From: Roseococcus sp. SDR
GTDB taxonomy: Bacteria; Pseudomonadota; Alphaproteobacteria; Acetobacterales; Acetobacteraceae
Direction: 5' to 3'
Assembly: GCF_019083995.1 (NCBI RefSeq)
Contig: NZ_JAHRCU010000002.1
Location: 124,001 to 188,000, forward strand
DNA: 64,000 nucleotides
Shown here: piece by piece, positions 35,150-54,067 of the stretch
Layout: every line of letters starts with the position of its first letter
Numbering within the stretch: the stretch's first letter is position 1
The notes under the pieces: generated by a model
What the model was told of the DNA's origin: nothing
Seen by the model: only the letters and a program-made list of their open reading frames with translations
The model's database searches: none
Program-made: the position numbers and the translations under genes

Positions 35150-36196
35150 ATGATCGCCTCCCGCCGGACCATCCTTGCCGCCAGCGCCCTCTCGCTGCCG
35201 CTGAGTGCCCCCTGGGTCACCAGCCGCGCGCAATCCGGCGGCACGCTGACCGTGGTGTTGAACCAGGGCCTCCTCGCCCGCCTCTGGATCGATGAGCTCC
35301 ACCCGGTCTTCGAGCGCGAGACGGGTGCCCGCATCAACGTGCAGCAATCGGTCACGGCGAACATGCTGGCCATGCTGCGCACCCAGCGCGACAATCCGCC
35401 CGACCTGATGCAGTTCTCCGAGGCCGGCGTCTTCGCGGCCGCCCAGGCCGGCCTGCTCCGCCCGCACAACCCGGCCAACATCCCCAACTGGGCGAGCTTG
35501 CGCGACGCCTTCAAGCTGGCCGACAACTATTCGGCCGGCGTCATCGATGCGGTGCATACGCTCTACTACAACACCCGCGCGCAGACGACGCAGCCCACCG
35601 CCTGGGCGCAGCTCTGGGATCCCTCCTCGCGCCGGCGCGTCGCCATTCCGCCCATCACCTGGAACAGCGGCGTGCGCATGGTGACGACGGCCGCGCAGAT
35701 CGCGACCGGCAAGCCCTTCGCCGAGGCGCAGCGTGACCTCGATGCCGGCATCCGCCACCTGGCGCGGCTGAAGGAGAACGGCGCCATCGCCTATACCGGC
35801 GCGCCGCAGGCCATCCAGATGCTGCAATCGGGGCAGATCCCGCTCGTGCCCTTCTACGGCATCTTCATCAACCCGATCATCGAGCAGGGCGCGCCCATCA
35901 AGCCCGCCGTGCCGCTGACCGAGGGCATCCATGGCGAGATCGTCGGCCTCAACATGCCGGTGAATGCGCGCAATGTGGAACTGGCCGAGCGCTACGTGAA
36001 CATGAGCCTCTCGCGCGAGTTCCAGAGCAAGATCGACACCGTGCTGCACTCGCGCGCCGCCAACAAGGATGTGAACCCCTCGCCCCGCACGCTGGAGCTG
36101 CTGGGCCCGCCGGACAACATCCTCTATGCCGACTGGCGCTTCCTCTCCGAGCAGCGCAGCCGCCTCACCGATGCCTGGAACAACGTGTTCGGCTGA
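35150..36196 (+). CDS. ABC transporter substrate-binding protein, spermidine/putrescine (PotD)-like
   Basis: A 348-residue exported binding protein. AAGGAG at 35138-35143 is a strong ribosome site six bases before ATG 35150. A twin-arginine-like signal (SRRTILAASALSLPLSAP) precedes a bacterial type 1/8 extracellular binding fold (LTVVLNQGLLARLWIDELHP; FERETGARINVQQS; DLMQFSEAGVFAAAQAGLL; SGQIPLVPFYGIFI). The fold is of the PotD/iron-type cluster, not of the nitrate type. It heads an operon of four transporter genes followed directly by three nitrile-hydratase-like subunits, so its ligand may be their substrate, a point of inference. Confidence 0.85.
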   Translation: MIASRRTILAASALSLPLSAPWVTSRAQSGGTLTVVLNQGLLARLWIDELHPVFERETGARINVQQSVTANMLAMLRTQRDNPPDLMQFSEAGVFAAAQAGLLRPHNPANIPNWASLRDAFKLADNYSAGVIDAVHTLYYNTRAQTTQPTAWAQLWDPSSRRRVAIPPITWNSGVRMVTTAAQIATGKPFAEAQRDLDAGIRHLARLKENGAIAYTGAPQAIQMLQSGQIPLVPFYGIFINPIIEQGAPIKPAVPLTEGIHGEIVGLNMPVNARNVELAERYVNMSLSREFQSKIDTVLHSRAANKDVNPSPRTLELLGPPDNILYADWRFLSEQRSRLTDAWNNVFG

Positions 36197-37056
36197 TGCA
36201 GGGCGCCTCCCCGCGCCTCACCGGGTTTCTGCTGCTGGCACCCGCGCTGGTCTTTCTCATCGCCTTCTACCTGGTCCCGCTCGGCACCATGGTGGAGGAG
36301 AGCCTGCGCTCGGCGCCCAACGACATGGATCCGCGCGCGGGGCTGCACCTCTTCCAGTATGACCGCGTGTGGAATTCCGGCCGCTCCTGGCGCGCGCTGG
36401 AGCGGACGGTGCGGATCTCCGCAATCTCGACGCTGCTGACGCTGCTCGTCGCCTATCCCATCGCGCTGTTCCTGTTCCAGGTGCGGGCCTTCTGGCGCAC
36501 GGCGATCCTGATCACGATCTTCGTCTCGCTCGCCTCCAGCCTGATCGTGCGCAACTATGGCTGGCTGGTGACGCTGGCCGATGCGGGGCCGGTGAACCAG
36601 CTTCTGCTGGCGCTCGGCATCGCTGATGAACCGCTGCGCATGGTGTACAGCGAGGGTGCCACCATCGTGGCGCTGGTGCATTACGCCCTGCCCTTCATGA
36701 TCCTGCCGATCTACGGCGCGCTGACGCGCATCCCGCCCTCCTTCGTCGAGGCCGCGCAATCGCTGGGCGCCGGGCCCTGGCGCGCGCTCTTCGGCACGGT
36801 GCTGCCGCTGTCCATGCCCGGCATCTTCGGCGGCACCACGCTGACCTTCGCCATCTGCATGAGCGCCTTCGTCACACCCCTCATGCTGGGCTCGCCGGCC
36901 ACCGCCATGATCAGCCAGGTCGCCGCCGAGCAGTTCCTGGTGCAGCTGAACTTCCCCTTCGGCTCGGCCATGATCGTGGCGCTGACCCTCGTCACCTTCG
37001 CGATCCTGCTGGCCTATACGCTGCTGATCCGCGCCGTGTTCCGTCACCATGCCTGA
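36196..37056 (+). CDS. ABC transporter permease, PotB-like
   Basis: A 286-residue inner-membrane permease whose ATG shares one base with the binding-protein stop (TGATG). It has six predicted membrane segments, starting with FLLLAPALVFLIAFYLVPLG, and a periplasmic loop after the first, typical of PotB/PotH types. The EAA motif SFVEAAQSLGAGPWRALFGTVL lies at about residues 180-200. The early segment SLASSLIVRNYGWLV resembles polyamine permeases. It overlaps the next permease by eight bases. Confidence 0.88.
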   Translation: MQGASPRLTGFLLLAPALVFLIAFYLVPLGTMVEESLRSAPNDMDPRAGLHLFQYDRVWNSGRSWRALERTVRISAISTLLTLLVAYPIALFLFQVRAFWRTAILITIFVSLASSLIVRNYGWLVTLADAGPVNQLLLALGIADEPLRMVYSEGATIVALVHYALPFMILPIYGALTRIPPSFVEAAQSLGAGPWRALFGTVLPLSMPGIFGGTTLTFAICMSAFVTPLMLGSPATAMISQVAAEQFLVQLNFPFGSAMIVALTLVTFAILLAYTLLIRAVFRHHA

Positions 37057-37849
37057 CGCCAAAGGCTTCCGCATCGTGGTGGCGACGCTGGCCTTGCTCG
37101 GCCTCGCCTTCCTGGTCTTCCCGGTGATCTTCACCGGCGTCGTCGCCTTCGGCGGCTCGATCTTCATCGAGTTTCCGCCGCAGAGCCTCTCCTTGCGCTG
37201 GTTCGAGAATATCGGCCGAATCAACCGCATCTGGGACGCAACGATCACGAGCCTCTATATCGGACTGATCACCGCGGCGCTGGCCACCGCCATGGGGGCG
37301 GCGGCGGCCCTCGCCCTGGTCCGCAGCCCGCTGCCGGGCAAGGCGATGCTGACCTCCCTGCTGCTCTCGCCCATCGCCCTGCCCATCGTCGCCATCGGCA
37401 TCGCGCTCATCCAGTTCTTCATCCTGCTCGGCATGGCCTTCACCTGGTGGAGCCTGGTCATCGGCCACCTCGTGCTCGTCATCGCCTATCCGGTGCGGAC
37501 GGTGGCCGCCGCCCTCACCCTCTCCAACCCCTCGCTCGAGGAAGCCGGCGCCTCGCTCGGCGCCTCGCCCTGGCAGGTCTTCCGCACCGTCACCCTGCCC
37601 CAGATGGCGCCGGGGCTGGTCAGCGGCTTTCTCTTCGCCTTCCTCATCAGCTTCGACAACTACCCGATCAGCGTCTTCCTGGTGCGCGGCGAGCTGACGA
37701 CGCTGCCGATCGAGCTGTTCAACTACATCAGCCAGAATCTCGACCCGACGCCTGCCGCCTTCTCTTCCGCCTATGTCGCCGTGGTGGCGGCGCTGATCCT
37801 GCTGGCGGAACGGCGCTGGCGCATCATCTCCCTCTCCATCCCCCGCTGA
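37049..37849 (+). CDS. ABC transporter permease, PotC-like
   Basis: The second permease of the same importer, 266 residues, with six membrane segments (LALLGLAFLVFPVIFTGVVA first). The EAA loop is EEAGASLGASPWQVFRTVTL at about residues 165-185. A conserved C-half FLFAFLISFDNYPISVFLV follows, as in PotC/PotI types. It overlaps the PotB-like gene by eight bases and is followed nine bases later by the ATPase gene, so all parts of the importer are present in one transcript. Confidence 0.88.
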   Translation: MPDAKGFRIVVATLALLGLAFLVFPVIFTGVVAFGGSIFIEFPPQSLSLRWFENIGRINRIWDATITSLYIGLITAALATAMGAAAALALVRSPLPGKAMLTSLLLSPIALPIVAIGIALIQFFILLGMAFTWWSLVIGHLVLVIAYPVRTVAAALTLSNPSLEEAGASLGASPWQVFRTVTLPQMAPGLVSGFLFAFLISFDNYPISVFLVRGELTTLPIELFNYISQNLDPTPAAFSSAYVAVVAALILLAERRWRIISLSIPR

Positions 37850-37858
37850 GGAGACCGC

Positions 37859-38907
<1,049 letters not shown>

Positions 38908-38911
<4 letters not shown>

Positions 38912-39255
38912 CCAGTGAACGTGCGATGCAATCATCCAGTCCGCGTGCCATGCACGACATCGGCGGCCTCGACCTCGGCCCGATTGATCGCACCGAGCAT
39001 CCGCGCACCCTCTACGAACTGCGCGTGGACGCCATGCTGATGCTGCTGACCGGCCCGGCCTGCGGCGCCTTCAAGACCGATGCGCTGCGCCGCGCCATCG
39101 AGGAATTCTCGCAGGAGGACTACGACCACCTGCCCTATTACGACCGCTGGCTGCAGGCCATCACCAACCTCCTGGTCGAGCAGCAGGTTCTGACGCGCGA
39201 GGAGATCGAGGCCCGCGTGGCCGCCATCACGAAGGAACTCGCCGATGCCGCCTGA
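38908..39255 (+). CDS. Nitrile hydratase beta-subunit N-terminal half / thiocyanate hydrolase-type small subunit
   Basis: A 115-residue protein matching the N-terminal half of nitrile hydratase beta: MHDIGGLDLGPI (residues 15-26), then a helical part ending YYDRWLQAITNLLVEQQVLT and REEIEARVAAI. In ordinary nitrile hydratase this half is fused to an SH3-like C-domain; here that domain is the next gene. Thiocyanate hydrolase and toyocamycin nitrile hydratase also split beta in two. The start at 38908 overlaps the ATPase stop (ATGA); Met15 is an alternative. The fold also resembles hydratase activator proteins, but the MHDIGG opening favours a structural subunit. Confidence 0.8.
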
Positions 39256-39535
39256 GCCGCGCTTCGCCCCCGGCACGCACGTCCGCGTCGCCAACCGGCC
39301 CGTGAGCGGCCATTGCCGCACGCCCTTCTACCTGCGCGGCCATCGCGGCGTGGTGCTGGAATATGCGGGGCATTTCCACAACCCCGCGCAGCTCGCGCAG
39401 CACCGCCCAGGCCTTCCCAAGCTCTTCCTCTACCGCGTCCGCTTCCCGCATCTCGGCCCGGATGGCCGCACGACGCAGGACGAGATCGAGGCCGACATCT
39501 ACGAAGATTGGCTGGAGAGCGAGGCCGCCGCATGA
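39245..39535 (+). CDS. Nitrile hydratase beta-subunit C-terminal half (SH3-like) / thiocyanate hydrolase-type small subunit
   Basis: A 96-residue SH3-like domain equal to the C-terminal half of nitrile hydratase beta. It shows FAPGTHVRVANRPVSGHCRT, FYLRGHRGVVLEYAGHFHNP, then LFLYRVRFPHLG and a closing acidic DEIEADIYEDWLE. These are the beta-strand landmarks of the domain that packs on the metal-containing subunit. It overlaps the upstream half-gene by 11 bases and the downstream catalytic subunit by four, so equal synthesis of the three subunits is likely. Gene order N-half, C-half, catalytic subunit matches that known for thiocyanate hydrolase as I recall it. Confidence 0.82.
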   Translation: MPPEPRFAPGTHVRVANRPVSGHCRTPFYLRGHRGVVLEYAGHFHNPAQLAQHRPGLPKLFLYRVRFPHLGPDGRTTQDEIEADIYEDWLESEAAA

Positions 39536-40206
39536 GCACGCCGCATCACCATCATCATGATCATGACCATGACCATGACCATGACCATGACCATGATCAC
39601 GACCACGCGCCGATCGAGGATGGCGAGGGCCCGCCCGGCCCATTTCAGATCCTGGAGCGGGCCCTGCGCGAACTGCTCATCGAGAAGGGCGTCCTGACCG
39701 CCGAGCAGATCACCCGGCAGATCGAGCTGCAGGAGGGCCGCACGCCGGAGCTTGGCGCCAGCGTCATCGCCAAGGCCTGGACCGACCCCGCATTCCACGC
39801 GGAGCTGAAGCACGACGCCCGGGCCGCTGTTGCGAAGCTCGGCATCACCATCCCCGATGCGCCGGAGCTGATTGCGCTGGAGAACGAGGAGGGCGTGCAT
39901 CACGTCATCGCCTGCACGCTGTGCTCCTGCTACCCGCGCATGCTGCTGGGCGTGCCGCCCGCCTGGTACAAGAGCAAGGCCTATCGCTCCCGCGTCGTGC
40001 GCGACCCGCGCGGCGTGCTGGCGGAATTCGGGCTGACCCTGCCGGAGGAGACGCGCATCCGCGTCGTGGATAGCACGGCGGACCTGCGCTACCTCGTCAT
40101 CCCGCGCCGCCCCGCAGGCACGGAAGGATGGGACGAGGCGCGCCTCGCCGCGCTCGTCACCCGCGATTCGATGATCGGGACAGGGGTGGCGCTCGCGCCG
40201 GAATAA
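39532..40206 (+). CDS. Cobalt-type nitrile hydratase alpha / thiocyanate hydrolase gamma-like catalytic subunit with His/Asp-rich tail
   Basis: A 224-residue metal-binding subunit. The claw motif CTLCSC (C128, C131, C133) has Thr after the first Cys, typical of cobalt rather than iron enzymes, in which two of the cysteines become oxidised. It is followed by YPRMLLGVPPAWYKSKAYRS and RVVRDPRGVLAEFGL. After CYP most hydratases have Trp; here it is Arg. Residues 5-25 are five His then eight Asp-His pairs, a likely metal-gathering tail. Function could be nitrile hydration to amide or thiocyanate hydrolysis to carbonyl sulfide and ammonia; sequence alone does not decide. The tRNA gene begins eight bases downstream on the other strand. 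Confidence 0.85.
   Translation: MSTPHHHHHDHDHDHDHDHDHDHDHAPIEDGEGPPGPFQILERALRELLIEKGVLTAEQITRQIELQEGRTPELGASVIAKAWTDPAFHAELKHDARAAVAKLGITIPDAPELIALENEEGVHHVIACTLCSCYPRMLLGVPPAWYKSKAYRSRVVRDPRGVLAEFGLTLPEETRIRVVDSTADLRYLVIPRRPAGTEGWDEARLAALVTRDSMIGTGVALAPE
39544..39606 (+). repeat. In-frame hexamer repeat coding for the His/Asp tail
   Basis: Five perfect GACCAT units sit at 39565-39594, flanked by near-copies (GATCAT before; GATCAC and GACCAC after), preceded by five His codons from 39544. The array could change length by slippage in steps of two residues without breaking the frame. Confidence 0.85.
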
Positions 40207-40359: not shown

Positions 40360-41334
40360 TCAGATGCGGATATTCGCGTCCCGCACGAGCTGCTGCCACC
40401 GGCCGAGATCGGTGCGCAGGATATCCGCCAGCCGCTCCGGCCCGCCGGGTGGTGCCGCCTCCACATTCTGCGTGGCGAGGCGACGCACGAAGGCAGGGTC
40501 AGCCAGCAGCTCGTTGAAGATTCGATTCCAATAGAGCGTGATGGCAGGCGGCGTCCCCGCCGGGCCGAACAGCCCGGCCCAGGCGAGGCTCTGGAAATCC
40601 ACCACCTCGGGCACGCCCGATTCGCGCATGCTCGGCACGTCCGGCAGGATGGGGGAGCGCGCCTGCGCCAGCACCGCCAGCGCCTTCACGCGGCCGCCCA
40701 CCACCTGCGGCTGGGCGCTGGTCATCGCATCAATCATGAAATGCACCCGCCCCGCCGAGAGATCGAGCAGCGCCTGGGCCGAGCCGCGATAGGGCACCTG
40801 CTCCATCGGCACGCGCGCAAGGCGCGAAAACATCTCCGTCGTCAGGTGCCCGGCCGTCCCCATGCCGGGATTGGCCGCGATGTAGCGGCCCGGATTGGCC
40901 CGCATCAGCGCCACCAACTCGGCCAGGTTGTTGGCCGGCAGATCGGGCGGCACCACGATGAGGAAGCCCGTCCAGCCGATCAGCGACATGGGCGCCAGAT
41001 CGCGCAGCACGTCGAAGGGCAGGTTGGGCGTGACCGCCGGGTTCACCGCGACGGGCGAGTTGCTGGTCAGCAGCAGCGTGTGCCCATCAGGCGGCGCGCT
41101 CGTCACCGCCTGCACGCCGATGGCGCCTGTGGCCCCCGCGCGGTTGTCCACCACGATCTGGACGTTGTGCCGCGTCTGCATCTCCTCCGTCAGCACGCGC
41201 GCGATCAGGTCGCTCATATTGCCCGGCGGGAAGGGCACGATGATGCGCACCGGGCGCGTCGGATAGCCTTGCGCGAAGGCGGGCGCGGCCAGCGCCAGGG
41301 CGGGCGCGGCGAGCAGGTGACGGCGTTGGATCAT
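40360..41334 (-). CDS. Bug family (TctC-type) solute-binding protein
   Basis: A 324-residue periplasmic receptor. The start at ATG 41334 overlaps the monooxygenase stop by four bases and places a Tat- or Sec-type signal (MIQRRHLLAAPALALAAPAFA) at the N-terminus. Bug motifs include PVRIIVPFPPGNMSDLIAR, IVVDNRAGATGAIGVQAV and QVPYRGSAQALLDL. The GG of the first loop is replaced by GN, which lies in the ligand pocket. It is coupled to an LLM monooxygenase and an MmgE/PrpD gene, so the ligand is probably the substrate of that pathway; no permease genes adjoin. Confidence 0.86.
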   Translation of the reverse strand: MIQRRHLLAAPALALAAPAFAQGYPTRPVRIIVPFPPGNMSDLIARVLTEEMQTRHNVQIVVDNRAGATGAIGVQAVTSAPPDGHTLLLTSNSPVAVNPAVTPNLPFDVLRDLAPMSLIGWTGFLIVVPPDLPANNLAELVALMRANPGRYIAANPGMGTAGHLTTEMFSRLARVPMEQVPYRGSAQALLDLSAGRVHFMIDAMTSAQPQVVGGRVKALAVLAQARSPILPDVPSMRESGVPEVVDFQSLAWAGLFGPAGTPPAITLYWNRIFNELLADPAFVRRLATQNVEAAPPGGPERLADILRTDLGRWQQLVRDANIRI

Positions 41335-42704
41335 GCGGCTGGGTTCCTTTGCCAATCGAAGGGGGCGGCGCGCGGCAGGCCGAGATTCTCGCGCAGCGTG
41401 GTGCCGGCGAATTCGCGCCGGAACACGCCGCGCCGCTGCAATTCGGGCACGACGAGGCGCACGAAATCCTCATAGGCGCCGGGCATATGCGTGGCGGCGA
41501 GCACGAAGCCGTCACAGGCCTCGCTCTCGAACCATTCCTGCATCTCATCGGCGACCGATTGCGGCGTGCCGGTGAAGCAGGGGAATTCGCGGATCGTGCC
41601 GCGGCCGCTGATCTGGACGAAGTCACGCAGCGTCGGGTTCTGCTTGCCCGAGCCCGCCACCACGCGGTCGCGGATGGCCTGCAGCCCCTTGATGCCGGCC
41701 AGTTCCTCGTCGGTGAAGGCCTCGTCCATGCCCTTGCTGGCGAAGTCGTAGTTCAGCACCTCGGAGAGCAGGGCGAGCCCGTCCACCGGCTTGGCCAGGC
41801 TCTCGATCAGCGCGCGCTTCTCGGCCGCCTCATCCTTGCTGTTGCCGATGATGGCATAGACCGCGGGGCAGACCCGCACCTTGGCGGGGTCGCGTCCCGA
41901 GGCGGCGACCTGCGCCTTGAACTCGGCATAGACCTTCTGCCCCGCCTTGAGGTTCGGATAGATCACGAAGATCAGGTCACCCCAATTGGCCGCGAAGGCC
42001 TTGCCACGCCCGCTCTGCCCCGCCTGGATCAGTACGGGCCTTCCCTGCGGCGTGCGCGGCACGGTGAAGGTGCCCTCGCTCTTGTACCAGCGCCCCTGGT
42101 GGTTCAGCCGCCGGACCTTGGTGGGGTCGGCGAAGACGCCGGACGCGCGGTCATTGATGATCGCGTCATCGCCCCAGGCATCCCAGTGGCTGAGCACGAT
42201 CTCCATGAATTCATCCGCGCGGTCATAGCGCAGGTCATGCTCGGGGTGCTCGGCGCGGCCCATATTGTGCGCCTCGCTGTCGTTCAGCGAGGTGACGACA
42301 TTCCAGGCCACGCGCCCCCCCAGCATGTGGTCCAGCGTCGCGAAGACGCGGGCCACGTGATAGGGCTCGTAATAGGTGGTGGAATAGGTGGCGCCGAGGC
42401 CGAGCTTCTCGGTGGCGAGGCCCATGGCGGTGAGGATCGAGATGAGGTCCAGCTTCACCACGCGGATGCCGTTTTGCATCGCCTGCGCATGGTCCCGGCC
42501 CAGGATGTCGGGCAGGGCCAGGCGATCATCGAAGAAGGCCATGTGGAAGCGGCCATCCTCGAGATTACGGGCGATGCGCTGGTAGTATTTCGGCGAAAGG
42601 AAGTCCTGCATGGTCTCCGGGTGCCGCCAGGAGCCGGGGTAGTTCGAGCAGTTCTGCGCCTGCAGAAAGGCGACCATGGCCATTTCGCCGCGTCGTGACA
42701 TCAC
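41331..42704 (-). CDS. LLM-class flavin-dependent monooxygenase (NtaA/SnaA/DszA family)
   Basis: A 457-residue bacterial-luciferase-like monooxygenase that uses reduced FMN and oxygen. Family features are ARNLEDGRFHMAFFDDRLAL, TYSTTYYEPYHVARVFATLD, GGRVAWNVVTSLNDSEAHNM, and PVLIQAGQSGRGKAFAANWG. Known relatives attack nitrilotriacetate, EDTA, dibenzothiophene sulfone and pristinamycin intermediates, cleaving C-N or C-S bonds. A flavin reductase partner is not encoded nearby and must come from elsewhere. It is flanked by the Bug gene (four-base overlap) and the MmgE/PrpD gene (nine-base gap). A second in-frame methionine at residue 2 leaves the exact start open. Confidence 0.88.
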   Translation of the reverse strand: MMSRRGEMAMVAFLQAQNCSNYPGSWRHPETMQDFLSPKYYQRIARNLEDGRFHMAFFDDRLALPDILGRDHAQAMQNGIRVVKLDLISILTAMGLATEKLGLGATYSTTYYEPYHVARVFATLDHMLGGRVAWNVVTSLNDSEAHNMGRAEHPEHDLRYDRADEFMEIVLSHWDAWGDDAIINDRASGVFADPTKVRRLNHQGRWYKSEGTFTVPRTPQGRPVLIQAGQSGRGKAFAANWGDLIFVIYPNLKAGQKVYAEFKAQVAASGRDPAKVRVCPAVYAIIGNSKDEAAEKRALIESLAKPVDGLALLSEVLNYDFASKGMDEAFTDEELAGIKGLQAIRDRVVAGSGKQNPTLRDFVQISGRGTIREFPCFTGTPQSVADEMQEWFESEACDGFVLAATHMPGAYEDFVRLVVPELQRRGVFRREFAGTTLRENLGLPRAAPFDWQRNPAA

Positions 42705-42713
42705 TTCGTTTCC

Positions 42714-44120
42714 TCAACCGTTGAGCGCTTCCGTCAGCGCCATCACATCGGACGCCGCATCGAGGCCCATGACAAGATCGAGGATGCGCCGCGCCTTGGC
42801 GGCGGAGAATTGCCGCCCGGCATTTTCCATGAACTTCCGCTCGACATCGGCCATGGTCAGCGGATTGCCGTCCGAGCCGCGGTTCATCTCCTCGCGGTGG
42901 CGCAGCACGCGGCCATCCATCGTCTCGATCACCAGCTCGCCGCCGTAGTAGCGCGGGAAGTTCAGCGTCGCGTCCGTCTCGTAGCTGGTGCGGGCACAGA
43001 GGGCGAGCGCGCGCGGATCGCGGATCATCTCTTCCTCCAGCTCGTCCAGCGAGAGGCGGCCGCGCAACAGGCAGGAGGCGACGGCGTAATGCACACTGAA
43101 CTGCGCGTCATAGGAATTGGCCGGCTGCTTCTTCGCCGCTTCCGGCTCGCACACCACCTTCACCTGGCCCGGATGGATGCGCACGGTGATGTGCTTGATG
43201 TCCTCGGGCCGCAGGCCATGCGCCGCGCGCAGCGCCAGCGCCGCATCGGCGAACACATGGTTGAAGTGGCAGCAGGGATAGGGCTTCAGCGCGTTGTTCC
43301 GCATCTCCCAGAGCTCACCCAGGCGCTCGGTGCAGCGCGAGAGATCGGCGGGCGACTTCTCCTGCAAATGGCTGCGGAACAGGCCGAAGCGGCCCTCATA
43401 GGCGGCGGGTGGCGCCTTGAAGCCATTGCGCGCCAGCGCCGTCGCCGTGATGGCGGCGAAGCCCGCCCAGCCGGGATGGATGCGCTTGGTCCAGGAGCCA
43501 TCCTCCAGGAATTCCAGGGAACCCGCCGCCATGGAGAGCAGGATGCCCTGCGCCGCGCCGATCTGCGCGGGCGTGGCGCCGGCGAGGCGCCCCGCCGTCA
43601 GCGCGCAGCCGAAGGCGCCGACCATGCCGGTCGGGTGGAAGCCCACCTGGTGGAAGCCGCCCTGCGCGGCGGCGCCGATGCGCGAGGCGCCCTCCACGCC
43701 CAGGATATAGGCGGCCAGCGCCTCGGCGCCGGAGGCACCATGCTCGCGCGCCATGTGAAGCGCCGTCGGCACCGTGCTGGAGGAGGCATGGACGATCGCG
43801 TCCGAATGCGTGTCGTCATAATCGAGGCCGTGGATGAGCGCGCCGTTCATCATCACGGCATCGCGCAGCGGCAGGCGGTAGGGCATGCCGATCACGGGAT
43901 GGCTGCCCGCCCCCGCCAGGCCATGGATCGCGCCGATGGTGCGCTTCGCATAGTCGAAGCCGGAGGCCGCGATGGCGATGCCCAGGCTGTCCAGCATGTG
44001 GCGCTTGGCCTGGTCCACCACATCGGCGGGGATGTCCTCCATGCGCAGCGCGGTCGCGAATTGGCCCAGCTCCAAGGAAATGGGCGTGCGCGTGGCAAGC
44101 TCGGTCGGCAGGCTGTCCAT
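42714..44120 (-). CDS. MmgE/PrpD family dehydratase/isomerase-like protein
   Basis: A 468-residue member of the MmgE/PrpD superfamily, which includes 2-methylcitrate dehydratase, cis-aconitate decarboxylase and an iminodisuccinate epimerase. The N-terminal helical domain carries AKRHMLDSLGIAIAAS, GMPYRLPLRDAVMMNGALIH and LDYDDTHSDAIVHASSST. The smaller C-terminal domain shows LKPYPCCHFNHVFADAALAL and ITVRIHPGQVKVV. The start ATG 44120 is chosen because the open frame beyond it lacks homology. It is the first gene of a three-gene operon and diverges from a CitE-type lyase gene, which suggests a branched dicarboxylate or tricarboxylate substrate. Confidence 0.87.
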   Translation of the reverse strand: MDSLPTELATRTPISLELGQFATALRMEDIPADVVDQAKRHMLDSLGIAIAASGFDYAKRTIGAIHGLAGAGSHPVIGMPYRLPLRDAVMMNGALIHGLDYDDTHSDAIVHASSSTVPTALHMAREHGASGAEALAAYILGVEGASRIGAAAQGGFHQVGFHPTGMVGAFGCALTAGRLAGATPAQIGAAQGILLSMAAGSLEFLEDGSWTKRIHPGWAGFAAITATALARNGFKAPPAAYEGRFGLFRSHLQEKSPADLSRCTERLGELWEMRNNALKPYPCCHFNHVFADAALALRAAHGLRPEDIKHITVRIHPGQVKVVCEPEAAKKQPANSYDAQFSVHYAVASCLLRGRLSLDELEEEMIRDPRALALCARTSYETDATLNFPRYYGGELVIETMDGRVLRHREEMNRGSDGNPLTMADVERKFMENAGRQFSAAKARRILDLVMGLDAASDVMALTEALNG

Positions 44121-44167
44121 GACGTTTGTCTCCCTTTTCCGAAAGCATGGGCATGTCCCGGCATGCC

Positions 44168-44184
44168 TGTCAAACATACGGACA
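44168..44184. promoter_or_regulatory. Candidate regulator site between MmgE/PrpD and lyase genes
   Basis: TGTC (44168-44171) and GACA (44181-44184) form a short inverted repeat with nine bases between, in a locally AT-richer stretch of the 127-base divergent region. GntR-family regulators bind small palindromes of this size; the encoded GntR protein at 45125-45883 is the obvious candidate. Evidence is weak. Confidence 0.25.
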
Positions 44185-44247
44185 AATCCATCTGGACGCG
44201 GCACGCCCCGCCGCCTATCAGCGAGGAAACCGCGCAGGAGACGCCGC

Positions 44248-45141
44248 ATGACCGCCCCGAACCGCACCTTCCTCTTCGCCCCCGGCGACCATGCCCGCCG
44301 CGCCGAGAAGGTGCTGACCGCAGGGGCGGATGCCTGCATCCTCGACCTCGAGGACGCGGTGGCGATCTCGGCCAAGGTGGCGGCGCGCGCGTTGGTGAAC
44401 GCGGCGCTCGACCGCCCCCGCACCTGCCGCGGCTTCGTGCGCGTCAACGCCTTCGATACGGAGTTCTGCCCGGGCGACATCCAGGCCGTGATCGGCCCCC
44501 GCCTGGATGGCCTCGTGCTGCCCAAGCTTGAGGACCCGGCCCAGCTCATCGCCGTGGACTGGCTGATCTCAGCCCTGGAGCGCGAGCGCGGCCTGCCCCC
44601 TCGCGGCATCGAGGTGATGCCGATCATCGAGACGGCGCGCGGCATGGCGGGCCTCGGCGCGCTCACCGCCTGCGCCGCCTCCCTCGGCGGCCGCGTCAAG
44701 CGCTTCAGCTTCGGCGCGGGCGACTATACGCTCGACCTCGGCATCACCTGGGATCTCGCGGAGACCGTGCTGGAAGGCGCCCGCGAGAAGATGGTGCTGC
44801 ACAGCCGCGCCGCCGGGCTGGAAGCCCCCATCGACACGGTCTGGATCGAGCTGCGCGAGATGGAGGCTTTCACCGCCTCCTGCGCGCGGGGCGTGGCGCT
44901 GGGCTTCCAGGGCAAGCTCTGCATTCATCCGGACCAAGTGCCCGTCGCCAATGCCGCCTACTCGCCGGCCGAGGCCGAGGTGGCGCGCGCGCGCCGCATC
45001 ATCGCCGCCTTCGCCGAGGCGGAGGCGCAGGGCCTCGCCTCCATCCAGGTGGAGGGGCGCTTCGTGGACTACCCGATCGTGGACCGCGCCCAGCGCATCG
45101 TGGCGCTGGCCGAGCGGATCGGCCTCACACCTCGCGCTTGA
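44248..45141 (+). CDS. HpcH/HpaI-CitE family CoA-ester lyase
   Basis: A 297-residue TIM-barrel lyase of the CitE-like group (citryl-, malyl- or citramalyl-CoA lyase type). Visible features are RTFLFAPGDHARRAEKVL, the acidic ILDLEDAVA, RGFVRVNAFDTEF, EVMPIIETARGMAGL (metal-binding Glu), SFGAGDYTLDLGI (metal-binding Asp) and GKLCIHPDQVPVANAAYSP. CAGGAG at 44235-44240 is a good ribosome site for ATG 44248. It diverges from the MmgE/PrpD operon and converges on the GntR gene with a 17-base overlap of coding ends. It may release acetyl-CoA, pyruvate or glyoxylate from the product of that pathway. Confidence 0.88.
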   Translation: MTAPNRTFLFAPGDHARRAEKVLTAGADACILDLEDAVAISAKVAARALVNAALDRPRTCRGFVRVNAFDTEFCPGDIQAVIGPRLDGLVLPKLEDPAQLIAVDWLISALERERGLPPRGIEVMPIIETARGMAGLGALTACAASLGGRVKRFSFGAGDYTLDLGITWDLAETVLEGAREKMVLHSRAAGLEAPIDTVWIELREMEAFTASCARGVALGFQGKLCIHPDQVPVANAAYSPAEAEVARARRIIAAFAEAEAQGLASIQVEGRFVDYPIVDRAQRIVALAERIGLTPRA

Positions 45142-45883
45142 GCGTCGCGCGATAGGTGAAGCGGGGGGCCGGATGGCAGCCCTCCGAAACCTCGAAGACG
45201 CGGCCATTCTGGTCGAGGTAGCGCCGGCGGATCATCAGCGCCGGCGCGCCTGGCTCCACTTCCAGCAGCGCGGCCTGCGCCTCGGGCACGCCGCCCGCCG
45301 AAAGATCCACCTCGACCGAAGAGAGCTGCACCCCGAAGCGCCGCTCGATCATCGCATAGACGGAGCCCGGCTGCTGGCCGATCTCCTCGATCACGGCCGC
45401 ATACTCGGCCGGGATGTGCAGCGTGACGAAGCAGATCGGCGCGGTGGTGAGGCGCACGCGGCGGATCCCCTCCACGCGCAGCCAGGCCTCGCCCTCCGGC
45501 ACGCCCGGCACCTCGGAGGAGGGCACCTCGCGCGCGCGCAGCACGGTGAGGCGCGTCTCTTCCGGGTATTGCAGCAGCCCGCCCATGCTGGTCAGGTCCT
45601 GCACGAAGCGGCCGCGGTTCTCATGCGCGATGACGGTCGTGCCGCTGCCCTGCCGGCGCGCCACCAACCCCGCCTCCTCCACCAGGCGCAAAGCCTCGCG
45701 GATGGTGTGGCGCGAGGCGCCGTAGAGCGCGCAGAGCTCGGTCTCGGTCGGCAGCATGCTGCCGATGGCGTGCTGACCGCCACGGATCTGGGCGAGCAAC
45801 TCGTCGCTGATCTGCCGGTAACGCGGGCGCGGATCAGCGCCGGAATTCGCGATGTCACGCCGGCTCGCACCGTCGCCCTTCAT
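45125..45883 (-). CDS. GntR-family (HutC/UTRA) transcriptional regulator
   Basis: A 252-residue regulator with an N-terminal winged helix (RYRQISDELLAQIRGGQHAIG; LPTETELCALYGASRHTIRE; ALRLVEEAGLVARRQGSGT) and a C-terminal UTRA effector domain (VEGIRRVRLTTAPICFVTLH; MIERRFGVQLSSVEVDLSAG). UTRA regulators usually repress uptake or degradation genes until a pathway metabolite binds. The adjacent lyase and divergent MmgE/PrpD operon are the likely targets. ATG 45883 with an AAGGG just upstream is used; GTG 45901 with a G-rich site is nearly as good. Confidence 0.88.
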   Translation of the reverse strand: MKGDGASRRDIANSGADPRPRYRQISDELLAQIRGGQHAIGSMLPTETELCALYGASRHTIREALRLVEEAGLVARRQGSGTTVIAHENRGRFVQDLTSMGGLLQYPEETRLTVLRAREVPSSEVPGVPEGEAWLRVEGIRRVRLTTAPICFVTLHIPAEYAAVIEEIGQQPGSVYAMIERRFGVQLSSVEVDLSAGGVPEAQAALLEVEPGAPALMIRRRYLDQNGRVFEVSEGCHPAPRFTYRATLKREV

Positions 45884-45933
45884 TGTGTCGCCCTTGGTCA
45901 CGGCGCCCCCCGGGATTTGTATTCCCGTTCTTG

Positions 45934-46479
45934 TTAGCCGGGGTCCTTCACCAAGGCCAGCAGGGAACGCCAGCGGGGGTGCGTCGCGTCCTCCGCCCAT
46001 TCGAAGCCGGCCATCTCGGTGGTGATGATCTCGGCGCCGGCGCGCGCCAGCCGGGCCAGAGCGGCCTCCCGGCTCGCCGCCCGGCGCGAGCCCATGGCAT
46101 CCCGCACGGCCCAGACGCGGCGCCCCAGGGCGCGCAGGCCGAGCGCCGTCTGCATCACGCAGATATGCGCCTCATAGCCGCAGATCACGATGTCGGTCCG
46201 CTCGGGCGGCAGCGCGTCGCGGAAGGCGGGCGTGCGGCAGGCGTCGAAGCTGGTCTTATGGAAGGTGTTCTCGCTCAGCGCGGCCAGTTCCGGCAGCAGC
46301 GGGCCGATGCGGTCCGGGCAATGCTCCGTCGCCCAGACCGGCACCTCGAAGAGCCTGGCGAGGTTCGCCAGGCGCAGTGCCTCCCGCGCCACGGCGGGTC
46401 CGTCCTCGATGGCCGGGTGCAGCTTGCCCTGCAGGTCCACCAGCAGCAGCAGCGAGGTCCGGCGGTCCAGGGTCAGCAT
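45934..46479 (-). CDS. Isochorismatase-family cysteine hydrolase
   Basis: A 181-residue hydrolase of the isochorismatase superfamily. The catalytic triad is present: Asp15 in LLVDLQGKLHP, Lys75 in FHKTSFDA, and Cys107 in CGYEAHICVMQTAL. The size and motifs resemble the YcaC-like/nicotinamidase-related group, which act on amides, N-carbamoyl compounds or ureas, so amide hydrolysis is more likely than isochorismate cleavage. Its first seven bases overlap the end of the TetR gene, so the two are co-transcribed and coupled. Confidence 0.88.
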   Translation of the reverse strand: MLTLDRRTSLLLLVDLQGKLHPAIEDGPAVAREALRLANLARLFEVPVWATEHCPDRIGPLLPELAALSENTFHKTSFDACRTPAFRDALPPERTDIVICGYEAHICVMQTALGLRALGRRVWAVRDAMGSRRAASREAALARLARAGAEIITTEMAGFEWAEDATHPRWRSLLALVKDPG

Positions 46480-51485: not shown

Positions 51486-52248
51486 GGCGCAGCATCCAGG
51501 CGATCAGGCCGAGGCCGCCGGCGAAGCCCAGCATCACCACGGCCAGGGCATTGGCCTCGGGCGTCATGCCCAGGCGCAACTGCGAGAAGAGATAGACCGG
51601 CAGCGTGGTGGCGCCCGGGCCGGAGACGAAGCTGGCCAGCACCACATCATCCAGTGACAGCGTGAAGGCCAGCAACCAGCCGGCGGCGAGGCTGGGCGCG
51701 ATCAGCGGCAGCGTGATGGTGCGGAACACCACGGCCGGTGTGGCGCCGAGATCCGCCGCTGCCTCCTCGAGTGCGGGGTCGAGGCCCGTGAGGCGCGCCT
51801 GCACCAGCACCGCGACGTAGGCCATGCCGAGGGAGGCATGCGCGAGCCAGACCGTCACCGCGCCACGCTGCGCGGGCCAACCCGTCAGCGCCTGGAGCCC
51901 CACGAAGAGCAGCAGCAAGGCGAGGCCCATGACCACTTCGGGCAGCACAAGCGGCGCCCCCGCCAGGACGCCAAAGAGCGGGCGGCCGGCAAAGCGCCCA
52001 TGCCGCGCCAGAACCCAGCCCAGCGCGAGGCCCAGCGCCGTCGCCAGCGTCGCGGAAGCCGCGCCGATGCGCAGAGAGAGCCAAGCCGCCTCCAGCAACC
52101 GTTCATTGGCCGCCAACGCCAGGAACCAGCGCAGCGAGAAGCCGCCCCATTCGAAGGGCACGCGGCTGCCGGAGAAGGCATAGGCCGCCATCAGCAGGAT
52201 GGGCGCCCAGAGGAAGATCAGCCCGAGGGCGAGGAAGGCCCGCCTCAC
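51475..52248 (-). CDS. Spermidine/putrescine-type ABC transporter permease (PotC/PotI-like)
   Basis: The last gene of a four-gene importer operon, 257 residues. Six membrane segments are visible, beginning LALGLIFLWAPILLMAAYAF; the conserved start of mature PotI types, FSGSRVPFEWGGFSLRWFL, is present. The EAA loop reads EEAAADLGATPAVVFRTITL at about residues 165-185, and LLAFTLSLDDVVLASFVSGP follows as in polyamine permeases. It overlaps the other permease gene by four bases. Confidence 0.9.
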   Translation of the reverse strand: MRRAFLALGLIFLWAPILLMAAYAFSGSRVPFEWGGFSLRWFLALAANERLLEAAWLSLRIGAASATLATALGLALGWVLARHGRFAGRPLFGVLAGAPLVLPEVVMGLALLLLFVGLQALTGWPAQRGAVTVWLAHASLGMAYVAVLVQARLTGLDPALEEAAADLGATPAVVFRTITLPLIAPSLAAGWLLAFTLSLDDVVLASFVSGPGATTLPVYLFSQLRLGMTPEANALAVVMLGFAGGLGLIAWMLRLRR

Positions 52249-53081
52249 CGTGCCACCGAAAGCCGTTGGTAGAGCGCGATCGGCACCAGGAGCAGCGCGA
52301 GCAGCGCGGTGGAGAGCACGGCAGCCGCCGGCCAGTCCCGCGTCTGGAAGAACTCGCCCCAGATGGCACGCCCAAAGAGCACGGAATCCGGTGCGCCCAG
52401 GACCTCGGGGATCACAACCTCACCGGCAGCGGGGATGAAGACCAGCAGGAAAGCGGCGCCGGCCGCGGGTGCGGCGAGCGGCAAGGTGATGGTGAGGAAG
52501 ACCGTCCAACGCCCGGCGCCGAGATCCGCCGCGGCTTCCTCCAGCCTCAGGTCGCGCCGCGCCAGCGTGGCCGTCAGCGGCAGCACCGCGAAGGGCAGAT
52601 AGCCATGCACCATGCCGAGCAGCATCGCACCCTCGCTGTAGAGCAGTGGCAGCGGCTCGCTGATCAGCCCCGCCTGCAGCAGCACGCTGTTGACCCAGCC
52701 GCCATCGCGCAGCAGCCCGACCCAGGCCGCCAGGCGCAGCACGAACCCGGACCAGAAGGGCAACAGCACCAGCGCCAGCAGTGGCGCCTGCCAGCGCGGC
52801 GCGGCGGAGGCGATGCCAAGCGCCATGCCGAAGCCCAGCACCAGGCAAAGCCCCGCCGTGATGGCGGCGAGCCGCAGCGAGCGCAGCGCGGCGTCGAGGT
52901 AGTAGGTGTCGGCGAAGAGCAAGGCCCAGGCTTCCAGGCTGCCCTGCCAGCCCGCGCGCCCGATGGGCGGGATGACGGGCGGCACACCGGGCGCCGAAGT
53001 GCCGAAGCCCATGCCGAGCACGATGACGAGCGGCGCCGCCACCAGCAGCAGCAGCGCGAGCCAGGCGCCCGCGCGGATCAT
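52245..53081 (-). CDS. Spermidine/putrescine-type ABC transporter permease (PotB/PotH-like)
   Basis: A 278-residue permease with N-terminal segment WLALLLLVAAPLVIVLGMGF, a periplasmic loop containing an acidic/aromatic stretch (FADTYYLDAALRSLRLA), and five further segments. The EAA loop is EEAAADLGAGRWTVFLTITL, nearly the same as in the partner permease. The segment FIPAAGEVVIPEVLGAPDS matches PotH types (IPAxGExVIPELLG). It overlaps its neighbours by four bases on each side. Confidence 0.9.
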   Translation of the reverse strand: MIRAGAWLALLLLVAAPLVIVLGMGFGTSAPGVPPVIPPIGRAGWQGSLEAWALLFADTYYLDAALRSLRLAAITAGLCLVLGFGMALGIASAAPRWQAPLLALVLLPFWSGFVLRLAAWVGLLRDGGWVNSVLLQAGLISEPLPLLYSEGAMLLGMVHGYLPFAVLPLTATLARRDLRLEEAAADLGAGRWTVFLTITLPLAAPAAGAAFLLVFIPAAGEVVIPEVLGAPDSVLFGRAIWGEFFQTRDWPAAAVLSTALLALLLVPIALYQRLSVAR

Positions 53082-54067
53082 GCCGAGAGCGGCGCCAGGG
53101 CAGCCGCGTCCCAGGCGAGGAACACCTCCGCCCCCGGCTCGGGCAGGGCGAGCCCAGCGGGCAGCACAAGGCGCAGCACCTGCCCTTCGGCCTGCGCCAG
53201 CAGCAGCACGTCGCCGCCGCGGAAGGCGATCTCGGTCACGGTGGCGCGGGTGCCATTCGCTTCGGGCAGGCCCGGGGCAAGCTGGATGCGCTCGGGACGG
53301 AGGGCATAGGCGGGCGCGGTGGTCTCGGCCCGCAGGTGGAAGCGCCCCGCCTCCAGCACATTGGCCGCCCCCAGGAAGCGGGCCACGGCGCGCGTCGCCG
53401 GGCGCTCGTAAAGTTCACGGGGCGCGGCGACCTGCGCGATGCGCCCGCCCTCCAGCACCGCAACGCGGTCGGCGAGCGAGAGCGCCTCGGCCTGGTCATG
53501 CGTGACCATGACAAAGCTGGCCCCGAGGCGGCGCTGCAGGGCCCGCAACTCCAGCCCCGTACGCTCGCGCAGGCCGGAATCCAGCGCACCCAGCGGCTCG
53601 TCGAGCAGCACGAGCGGCGGCCGCCGCGCCAATGCACGCGCAAGGGCAACGCGCTGCTGCTGCCCGCCCGAAAGCTGCTGCGGCCGGCGCTCCTCCAACC
53701 CCTCCAGGCCAAGCAGGACAACAAGTTCCGCCACGCGCGGCCCAGGGTCTCGCTCACCCGCGCGGCGCAGACCATAGGCGATGTTCTCTCGCACGCTCAT
53801 GTGCGGGAAGAGAGCGTAGGACTGGAACATCATGGCGAGGTCCCGCGCCTGCGGCGGCAGGCGGGTGATGTCCCGGCCCTGCAACCGCACACGCCCCGAA
53901 TCCGGCGCCTCGAAGCCGGCGATCACGCGCAGCAGCGTGGACTTGCCGGAGCCTGAGCCGCCCAACAGCGCGAAGAATTCGCCCGCGCCGATTTGAAGCG
54001 AGAGCGCGTCCAGCGCCGTGGTCGAGGCGAAGCGCTTGACCAGCCCTTCCAGCGCCAGCAGCGTCAC
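53078..54067 (-). CDS. Spermidine/putrescine-type ABC transporter ATP-binding protein (PotA/PotG-like)
   Basis: A 329-residue ATPase with Walker [21 protein letters not shown]-loop MFQSYALFPHMSV, signature [18 protein letters not shown], Walker B LVLLDEPLGALDSGLRE and switch THDQAEALSLADRV. A C-terminal TOBE domain follows (residues about 240-329). It is coupled by four-base overlaps to the binding protein upstream and the permease downstream. It is clearly distinct from the PotA-like ATPase at 37859-38911, so the window carries two importers of this class. Confidence 0.9.
   Translation of the reverse strand: MTLLALEGLVKRFASTTALDALSLQIGAGEFFALLGGSGSGKSTLLRVIAGFEAPDSGRVRLQGRDITRLPPQARDLAMMFQSYALFPHMSVRENIAYGLRRAGERDPGPRVAELVVLLGLEGLEERRPQQLSGGQQQRVALARALARRPPLVLLDEPLGALDSGLRERTGLELRALQRRLGASFVMVTHDQAEALSLADRVAVLEGGRIAQVAAPRELYERPATRAVARFLGAANVLEAGRFHLRAETTAPAYALRPERIQLAPGLPEANGTRATVTEIAFRGGDVLLLAQAEGQVLRLVLPAGLALPEPGAEVFLAWDAAALAPLSA

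Follow-up and report, generated by a model that had tools for sequence, protein, structure and literature searches.

A seven-gene operon at positions 35150–40206 of the window (the whole 64,000-nucleotide stretch of Roseococcus sp. SDR DNA that was analysed) most plausibly encodes a dedicated uptake-and-hydration system for a small nitrile, a reading in which activity, metal, substrate, flux and cobalt loading are predicted. Recurrence of the gene set, its conserved motifs, the short spacing between importer and hydratase genes and the enzymes encoded downstream in relatives count for this reading; three importer records that lack a hydratase, an amidase missing from the examined stretch in 11 of 21 loci, a narrowly missed family cut-off and the two groups of operon alpha subunits count against it.

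Layout and recurrence of the operon

All seven genes lie on the + strand and are open in a reading-frame check, and all seven proteins score over the Pfam gathering values. A substrate-binding protein (35150–36196, 348 aa; SBP_bac_6, 38.0 bits) is followed by two BPD_transp_1 permeases, one PotB/PhnU-like (36196–37056, 286 aa) and one PotC/PhnV-like (37049–37849, 266 aa), and by an ATPase with ABC_tran and TOBE_2 domains (37859–38911, 350 aa); then come the free N-terminal half of a hydratase beta subunit (beta-N, 38908–39255, 115 aa; NHase_beta_N, 63.8 bits), the free C-terminal half (beta-C, 39245–39535, 96 aa, with the motif HCRTPFYLRG; NHase_beta_C, 61.1 bits) and the catalytic alpha subunit (39532–40206, 224 aa; NHase_alpha, 259.4 bits). 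Permease 1 overlaps the binding-protein gene by 1 base and permease 2 overlaps permease 1 by 8, a 9-base gap before the ATPase is the sole non-overlapping junction, and the junctions 3' of the ATPase overlap by 4, 11 and 4 bases. An earlier sequence-only reading of this DNA had described seven genes on one strand, a 4-base overlap of ATPase and hydratase with later overlaps, a split beta subunit and a CTLCSC claw, all of which the coordinates and domain matches bear out (the claw reads ACTLCSCYPR); its phrase "fused by overlap" holds for the reading frames and not for the proteins, which are not fused. A promoter scan found 0, with 0.5 expected.

The set recurs in distant bacteria, and a neighbourhood specific to this strain, which that reading had named as the case against itself, is ruled out by the survey. 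This binding protein was traced in 36 distinct records from Alpha- and Betaproteobacteria. A complete hydratase stands behind the ATPase in 24 of them; 2 enter the hydratase just as the contig stops, 7 are cut off by a contig end before that point, and 3, which have shared flanks, are without a hydratase; the pair is kept in 26 of the 29 informative records, in two classes. These records are 29 scanned loci plus the window, G005, G012, G363, G371, G583 and G599, distinguished by the length of their contigs, with the duplicate pairs L052/L170, L054/L196, L131/L186 and L128/L197 counted once; the scan used two peptide patterns, and the count is a lower bound. In a class sample the binding protein (E 1e-60) was found in 7 of 385 genomes and the hydratase adjoins it in 5 of the 7, or in 4 of 6 when the genome of the window is left out. 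Since the same gene order recurs outside the genus (42–74% identity per gene) and the closest start that beta-N could use falls within 44 bases of the ATPase stop (25 measurable rows, 3 of which repeat a record), the arrangement is more than chance. One record, L127, carries an in-frame TAG within the binding-protein gene.

Neighbouring genes were surveyed at E 1e-12 in 38 rows, or 35 distinct records, with L127 left out. For the downstream genes, the 24 complete loci minus L052/L170, L127 and L195 leave 21 that extend 0.6 kb or more past alpha. In 9 of these 21 an isochorismatase-family amidase is encoded on the same strand within 2 kb downstream, and in 6 of the 21, all among the 9, an isocitrate-lyase-type lyase lies between alpha and amidase; an RraA-type aldolase occurs in Alcaligenaceae-type records. 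The amidase is also found upstream in L188 and in two truncated clusters (L190, L193); it is absent from the examined stretch in 11 of the 21 loci, the window's genus included, and its closest homologue in the window's own genome is unlinked and 46% identical. Of the 35 distinct records, 10 have a gene for a GntR-type regulator immediately upstream of the binding-protein gene. A tripartite-type binding protein, a luciferase-type monooxygenase and an MmgE/PrpD protein encoded behind the operon were rejected as parts of it: they lie on the opposite strand and do not stand beside the operon in L055.

The operon thus looks like a genuine nutrient-use system, and the coupling of this importer to a three-subunit cobalt-type hydratase that had been proposed earlier gains support from both the recurrence and the downstream enzymes. 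Strict dedication of the importer is weakened by the three records without a hydratase. Limited literature searches, with most subscription journals outside their scope, turned up no description of an importer joined to a split hydratase in one operon, in agreement with the sequence-only reading, which had known of none.

Class and cobalt loading of the hydratase

The best reading of the enzyme, judged by its sequence, is a cobalt-type nitrile hydratase of three separate chains, with activity and metal predicted. It resembles the solved enzymes that we take to represent this class (Pseudonocardia thermophila 1ire, the Bacillus-type 1v29/2dpp, and 3qxe) in its full-length alpha with the claw CTLCSC followed by YPR (39913–39939; C128, C131, C133 and R136), and beta-N and beta-C align with the two halves of their beta subunit. 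It differs in that their beta is a single chain and the window's is two genes, in having CYPR where they have CYPW, in the lack of an activator match over the cut-off, and in its Pot-type importer. Both the claw and the HCRTP of beta-C, with nearby beta residues, are invariant in 18 of 18 aligned operon members. Alpha scores 246.6 bits against the NCBIfam equivalog TIGR01323, narrowly missing the cut-off of 249.85, and a search of solved chains with an operon profile gave cobalt-type nitrile hydratases 221–246 bits (4ob1, at 275 bits, counts a duplicated segment). The three-subunit design is shared with the toyocamycin nitrile hydratase ToyJKL, an antibiotic pathway enzyme. Alpha also exceeds the cut-off of the NHLP leader-peptide model TIGR03793 (66.6 vs 50.9 bits), yet a RiPP precursor was rejected, as alpha is full-length with the claw and the operon holds importer and hydratase genes only, with no maturation enzymes.

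Arg136 of alpha sits where the solved cobalt enzymes have Trp, a replacement that suggests a small, polar and probably anionic (carboxylate-bearing) nitrile as substrate. Counting the best alpha per locus, with duplicates kept and split or fused beta assigned by a crude frame test, the residue after CYP is Arg in 80 of 99 rows (64 with split beta, 16 with beta-N only) and Trp in 13 (9 with fused beta, 2 split, 2 beta-N only). Trees were built from 97 rows, left after identical sequences were dropped from an uneven sample of chosen best matches that includes neither a thiocyanate hydrolase (SCNase) nor a classical reference enzyme. The careful tree splits the operon alphas into two groups, and only 6% of 200 bootstrap trees unite them; a single clade is not rejected by the AU test (p 0.377), though it is not shown either.

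With the activator model TIGR03889, no match over the cut-off of 46 was obtained in 6 of 7 genomes, nor was an activator found in 14 control genomes, and no gene beside the structural genes matched over the cut-off, as one would in a cobalt-type nitrile hydratase operon. The only match in the window's own genome is the operon's beta-N, at 21.1–21.2 bits, and the same search did pick up a genuine activator, in G599 (84.9 bits). Given that no separate activator was found, cobalt is probably loaded by way of the activator-like free beta-N and the His/Asp-rich N-terminal tract of alpha (HHHHHDHDHD...H, 39544–39606), a possible metal-loading arm. The apparent absence of an activator would make cobalt loading in this subfamily a testable question. 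His-rich alpha N-termini are widespread in the family and also accompany fused-beta enzymes.

The importer, the candidate substrate and competing explanations

The importer shares its make-up of binding protein, two permeases and TOBE ATPase with the PotABCD spermidine/putrescine and PhnSTUV aminoethylphosphonate importers, to which it is related in sequence, but it reaches the cut-off of no tested model: the ATPase scores 307.8 bits with the PotA model (cut-off 482) and 319.3 with a PotA subfamily model (355.6), and the permeases score 150.4 with PotB (348) and 114.9 with PotC (326). The binding protein carries RRTIL... at its N-terminus, presumably a twin-arginine-type signal; 4edp is its nearest solved chain, with PotD next by sequence profile. 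The acids that we take to hold the polyamine in PotD (Asp168, Glu171 and Asp257) align, in a weak local alignment with a gap nearby, with G174, M177 and V265. On these replacements and the Pot model scores a polyamine importer was rejected, and a cationic, polyamine-like substrate, along the lines suggested earlier, is not supported. An AlphaFold model of the binding protein (pLDDT 64.8) is too weak for reading the pocket, and the ligands of its structural matches are as diverse as sugar phosphates, ferric ion, GABA, agropinic acid and spermidine.

In the uptake-and-hydration system that we favour, the exported binding protein would capture the nitrile, the two permeases and the ATPase would import it, and the hydratase would hydrate its cyano group to an amide. 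In many relatives the isochorismatase-family amidase of the same operon could then hydrolyse this amide to ammonia and a carboxylic acid, which in some an isocitrate-lyase-superfamily lyase, or the RraA-type aldolase of the Alcaligenaceae-type records, may cleave; the window's genus would depend on an amidase encoded elsewhere. A more specific proposal, which we put forward tentatively and regard as rather doubtful, is a catabolic module, met with repeatedly, for nitriles that bear a carboxylate, such as cyanohydrins or cyano-acids, combining its own importer, an Arg-type hydratase, activator-free cobalt loading, an amidase and a lyase or RraA protein cleaving a hydroxy- or oxo-acid; if so, the nitrile would feed both nitrogen and carbon.

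It is unlikely that importer and hydratase are mere neighbours, the former carrying another nutrient and the latter acting as a general nitrile detoxifier under a shared promoter: three records do keep the importer alone, and 71 of 73 non-operon alpha rows have no same-strand ABC ATPase within 2.5 kb (some loci end early), but the pair's persistence at short spacing across two classes and the inclusion of amidase and lyase genes in that string argue otherwise. An N-cyano substrate of the cyanamide type, hydrated to an N-carbamoyl product from which the amidase removes the carbamoyl group, would suit the amidase's best solved relative, N-carbamoylsarcosine amidohydrolase (172 bits); the next, 3ot4 (132.8 bits), which we take to be maleamate amidohydrolase, fits a carboxylate amide equally, and the lyase and aldolase neighbours seem better suited to carboxylic acids, so that we hold this substrate to be improbable.

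Just as improbable is a thiocyanate hydrolase supplied with thiocyanate by the importer; the sequence-only reading had offered this enzyme as one identity. Like SCNase (2dd4), the window's enzyme has three separate superfamily chains, the alignment with SCNase gamma reaches the His-rich arm (query 12–219), the solved relatives of beta-N include SCNase beta (31.3 bits), and SCNase gamma presumably also has an Arg, Arg136, next to its claw, on which a literature search found nothing. Alpha nevertheless scores 191.9 bits against the curated model TIGR03887 (cut-off 291.45), the operon profile gives SCNase gamma 202 bits, below the cobalt-type nitrile hydratases to which alpha is nearer, a comparison of beta-C with solved chains up to E 0.01 yields no SCNase chain, and the relatives' amidase and lyase would be ill-suited to thiocyanate. 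A search with SCNase gamma at E 1e-75 matched nothing in 299 phylum genomes or 14 control genomes, which shows no absence.

To our knowledge, natural substrates have been established for few nitrile hydratases, and a binding protein within a hydratase operon offers a direct route to one through ligand screening. The same genome holds a second importer-hydratase operon (G000:C5, L051), in which beta-N, beta-C and alpha likewise stand directly behind an ABC ATPase, with a 1-base overlap; it differs in its importer class, with an NMT1/THI5-type binding protein and a short ATPase, and its alpha is just 45–47% identical. This second operon, the relatives' amidase and lyase and the missing activator had gone unmentioned in the sequence-only reading. 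Two plasmid records of related three-subunit enzymes label the beta halves only as "SH3-like domain-containing protein", so that such systems are easily missed.

The importer-hydratase operon and its distribution

Seven genes fill positions 35150-40206 of the window on the + strand, in the order binding protein, permease, permease, ATPase, beta-N, beta-C and alpha (beta-N and beta-C being the separately encoded halves of the hydratase beta subunit, and alpha the catalytic subunit). The largest gap is 9 bases and the sole intergenic one lies ahead of the ATPase; from the ATPase onward each frame overlaps the next, with 4, 11 and 4 bases shared, in agreement with the sequence-only reading, whose account of the anatomy and of the importer-hydratase coupling proved right, the coupling being real and conserved. 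All seven proteins score above the gathering score of their Pfam family. This conserved operon is probably a nitrile-use system. No description of it was found among the papers listed, in a literature search that took in parts of PMC8567248, PMC11002830, PMC12625717, PMC2603476, PMC6504805, PMC10098168, PMC2770081 and PMC3511329, with subscription journals largely outside it, and its novelty is provisional; the portion of PMC10098168 covered presents trees of nitrile hydratases and thiocyanate hydrolases and a neighbourhood analysis for nitrilases.

The preceding gene, which we take to be ispE-like, stops 51 bases ahead of the binding protein (50 in locus L053), and a tRNA-Gln follows the operon directly on the opposite strand. 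Behind the operon on the - strand (40360-46479) lie genes for a tripartite-type binding protein, a luciferase-type monooxygenase, an MmgE/PrpD protein, a GntR/UTRA regulator and an isochorismatase-type protein; the first three also occur in L053, the first two in L054/L196, where the contig ends, and none of the three in L055.

Some alpha (E 0.001) is present in 20 of 21 genomes of the genus, a close copy (93-95%) in only five, own genome included, and the other four of these also carry the full operon. In the order sample an alpha (E 0.001) occurs in 135 of 299 genomes and a close copy in three, all of the same genus; of 385 genomes sampled from the class, 141 have an alpha (E 1e-20) and 7, counting the window's own, have the binding protein (E 1e-60); the hydratase adjoins the importer in five of these seven. 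A pattern-based scan of 84,980 species, one genome per species, gave 29 loci, all metagenome bins by title, labelled as Acetobacteraceae, Roseococcus, Rhodovibrionaceae, Tepidamorphaceae, Rhodospirillaceae, Ferrovibrio, Burkholderiaceae, Alcaligenaceae and others. With seven further ones these make 36 distinct records of the binding protein: 24 have a complete hydratase (L127 with an in-frame TAG inside its binding-protein gene), in two the contig ends inside the hydratase (L169, L180), in seven ahead of it (L173, L174, L176, L177, L190, L192, L193), and three lack a hydratase although the contig continues (L185, L129, L197). L193 (CAMCII010000203.1) is titled Bordetella parapertussis, yet its gene content and order are those of L188, an Alcaligenaceae lake assembly, and L190, so the title is probably a mislabel.

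The flanks shared by the three hydratase-less records (a DEAD-box helicase and an isochorismatase-type gene) recur in L131/L186, where the hydratase is present. At the hydratase position, Pfam identifies genes for a TacA-like antitoxin and a GNAT protein in L128/L197, which is a single record; L185 has genes there that resemble these two by sequence, and L129 has none called. The importer reading frames remain open in all three, so the importer either has a further use or awaits loss.

Kinship of the hydratase and ligand of the importer

Alpha is closest to the cobalt-type nitrile hydratases (TIGR01323, 246.6 bits, cut-off 249.85) and scores 191.9 bits with the thiocyanate hydrolase gamma model (cut-off 291.45); a profile of 18 operon alphas gives cobalt-type enzymes 221-246 bits and thiocyanate hydrolase gamma 202.3, the top chain being 4ob1 at 274.9 bits, a lead due to a duplicated segment. 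The suggestion of a thiocyanate hydrolase finds no support, the score with the gamma model being under its cut-off and gamma scoring below the cobalt-type enzymes with the operon profile. Invariant in 18 of 18 operon members are the alpha claw (C128, C131, S132, C133) and R136, beta-N R61, R62, Y77, Y78 and W81, and the beta-C motif HCRTP.

The solved cobalt-type chains compared have Trp at the position of R136, which is presumably the counterpart of a substrate-pocket Arg of thiocyanate hydrolase. Across 99 alpha rows this residue is R in 80 (64 with split beta, 16 with only beta-N matched), W in 13 (9 fused, 2 split, 2 beta-N only), K in four and V in one (all split), and L in one (beta-N only); on these counts, split, Arg-type hydratases are a common subfamily to which the operon enzymes belong. 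In a quick tree a single branch separates the 24 operon alphas from all other rows (SH-aLRT 78); a careful tree splits them into two groups, 6% of its 200 bootstrap trees unite them, and a constrained single group is not rejected (p-AU 0.377). Among the non-operon alpha rows, 2 of 73 are accompanied on their own strand by an ABC ATPase no more than 2.5 kb away.

The importer's nearest kin are the polyamine (Pot) and aminoethylphosphonate (Phn) importers, and no model among the matches listed reaches its cut-off. A profile of 26 binding proteins matches 4edp and then PotD, and a fold search indicates no particular ligand. In a weak alignment, G174, M177 and V265 stand opposite PotD Asp168, Glu171 and Asp257 (numbers that we assume, and that fit the chain once 23 is added); because these three acids are replaced, polyamine binding is unlikely, and the idea of a cationic substrate is left unsupported. 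A further Pot-like importer lies at 51499-54013 on the - strand, 37% and 32% identical to the operon permeases and 46% to the ATPase.

Linked enzymes and proposed cobalt loading

At least 0.6 kb of sequence follows alpha in 21 of the 24 complete operons. An isochorismatase-family amidase lies on the same strand within 2 kb downstream in nine of the 21 (L175, L178, L179, L182, L183, L184, L191, L194, L130), and a lyase of the PEP-mutase/isocitrate-lyase family stands between alpha and amidase in six (L175, L178, L179, L183, L184, L130), the families being assigned on the genes of L178 and L182. In the Alcaligenaceae-type loci L188, L190 and L193 an RraA-type aldolase accompanies the amidase, which there lies upstream of the importer; the stretches examined of L187 and L189 show no such arrangement. 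The remaining 11 of the 21 loci, the window among them, show no such amidase in the sequence examined; the window's isochorismatase gene (45934-46479, other strand) is unmatched by the amidase queries at E 1e-12. Among solved structures the amidase matches N-carbamoylsarcosine amidohydrolase best (172 bits), followed by 3ot4 (132.8). Some homologue occurs in 11 of 11 genomes queried, two of them without hydratase; that of genome G363 is 64% identical and about 200 kb away, that of the window's genome 46% identical and unlinked.

The simplest reading of the downstream enzymes is that a nitrile would be converted to an amide, and this to an acid and ammonia. Lyase and aldolase would both suit hydroxy- or oxo-dicarboxylates, which together with R136 suggests that the substrate may be an anionic nitrile. 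In the closely related L183 (11264-15562) and L184 (16712-21031), a PuuE-like gene (allantoinase family, under its cut-off) and a second importer (34-44% identical) head towards the hydratase operon from the opposite side.

An activator gene adjoins the cobalt-type nitrile hydratases treated in the sections of PMC3511329 covered. In six of seven operon genomes no match reaches the cut-off of the activator model, and the match there falls within the operon's beta-N; a further weak match turns up in G660, close to that genome's other hydratase. The search is able to detect an activator, since G599 yielded a true one (84.9 bits) beside its own other hydratase, and 14 control genomes gave none. 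Since a match above the cut-off is absent, candidates for the cobalt-loading step are the activator-like free beta-N and alpha's His/Asp-rich arm; His-rich arms occur beside fused-beta enzymes as well.

Other hydratases and importer pairings

Another importer class is paired with a hydratase in the window's own genome: a second operon (G000:C5, L051:7477-11457) encodes a permease, an NMT1/THI5-type binding protein, a 260-aa ATPase, beta-N, beta-C and alpha, with ATPase and beta-N overlapping by 1 base. A third three-subunit hydratase there (G000:C9, L050:7089-8304), its alpha 48% identical to the window's, is followed by a gene judged by eye to be MFS transporter-like. In genome G012 a second alpha (C1:2489709-2490293), 45% identical, has one in-frame TAG. 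At L142:5010-9895 one strand carries a three-subunit hydratase and, directly after it, an ABC ATPase with a permease-like stretch, and on Rhizobium plasmids (L166:7661-10785, L167:6461-8941) three-subunit hydratases, whose beta halves are annotated solely as SH3-like domain-containing protein, adjoin CbtB/CbtA genes, which we take to serve cobalt uptake.
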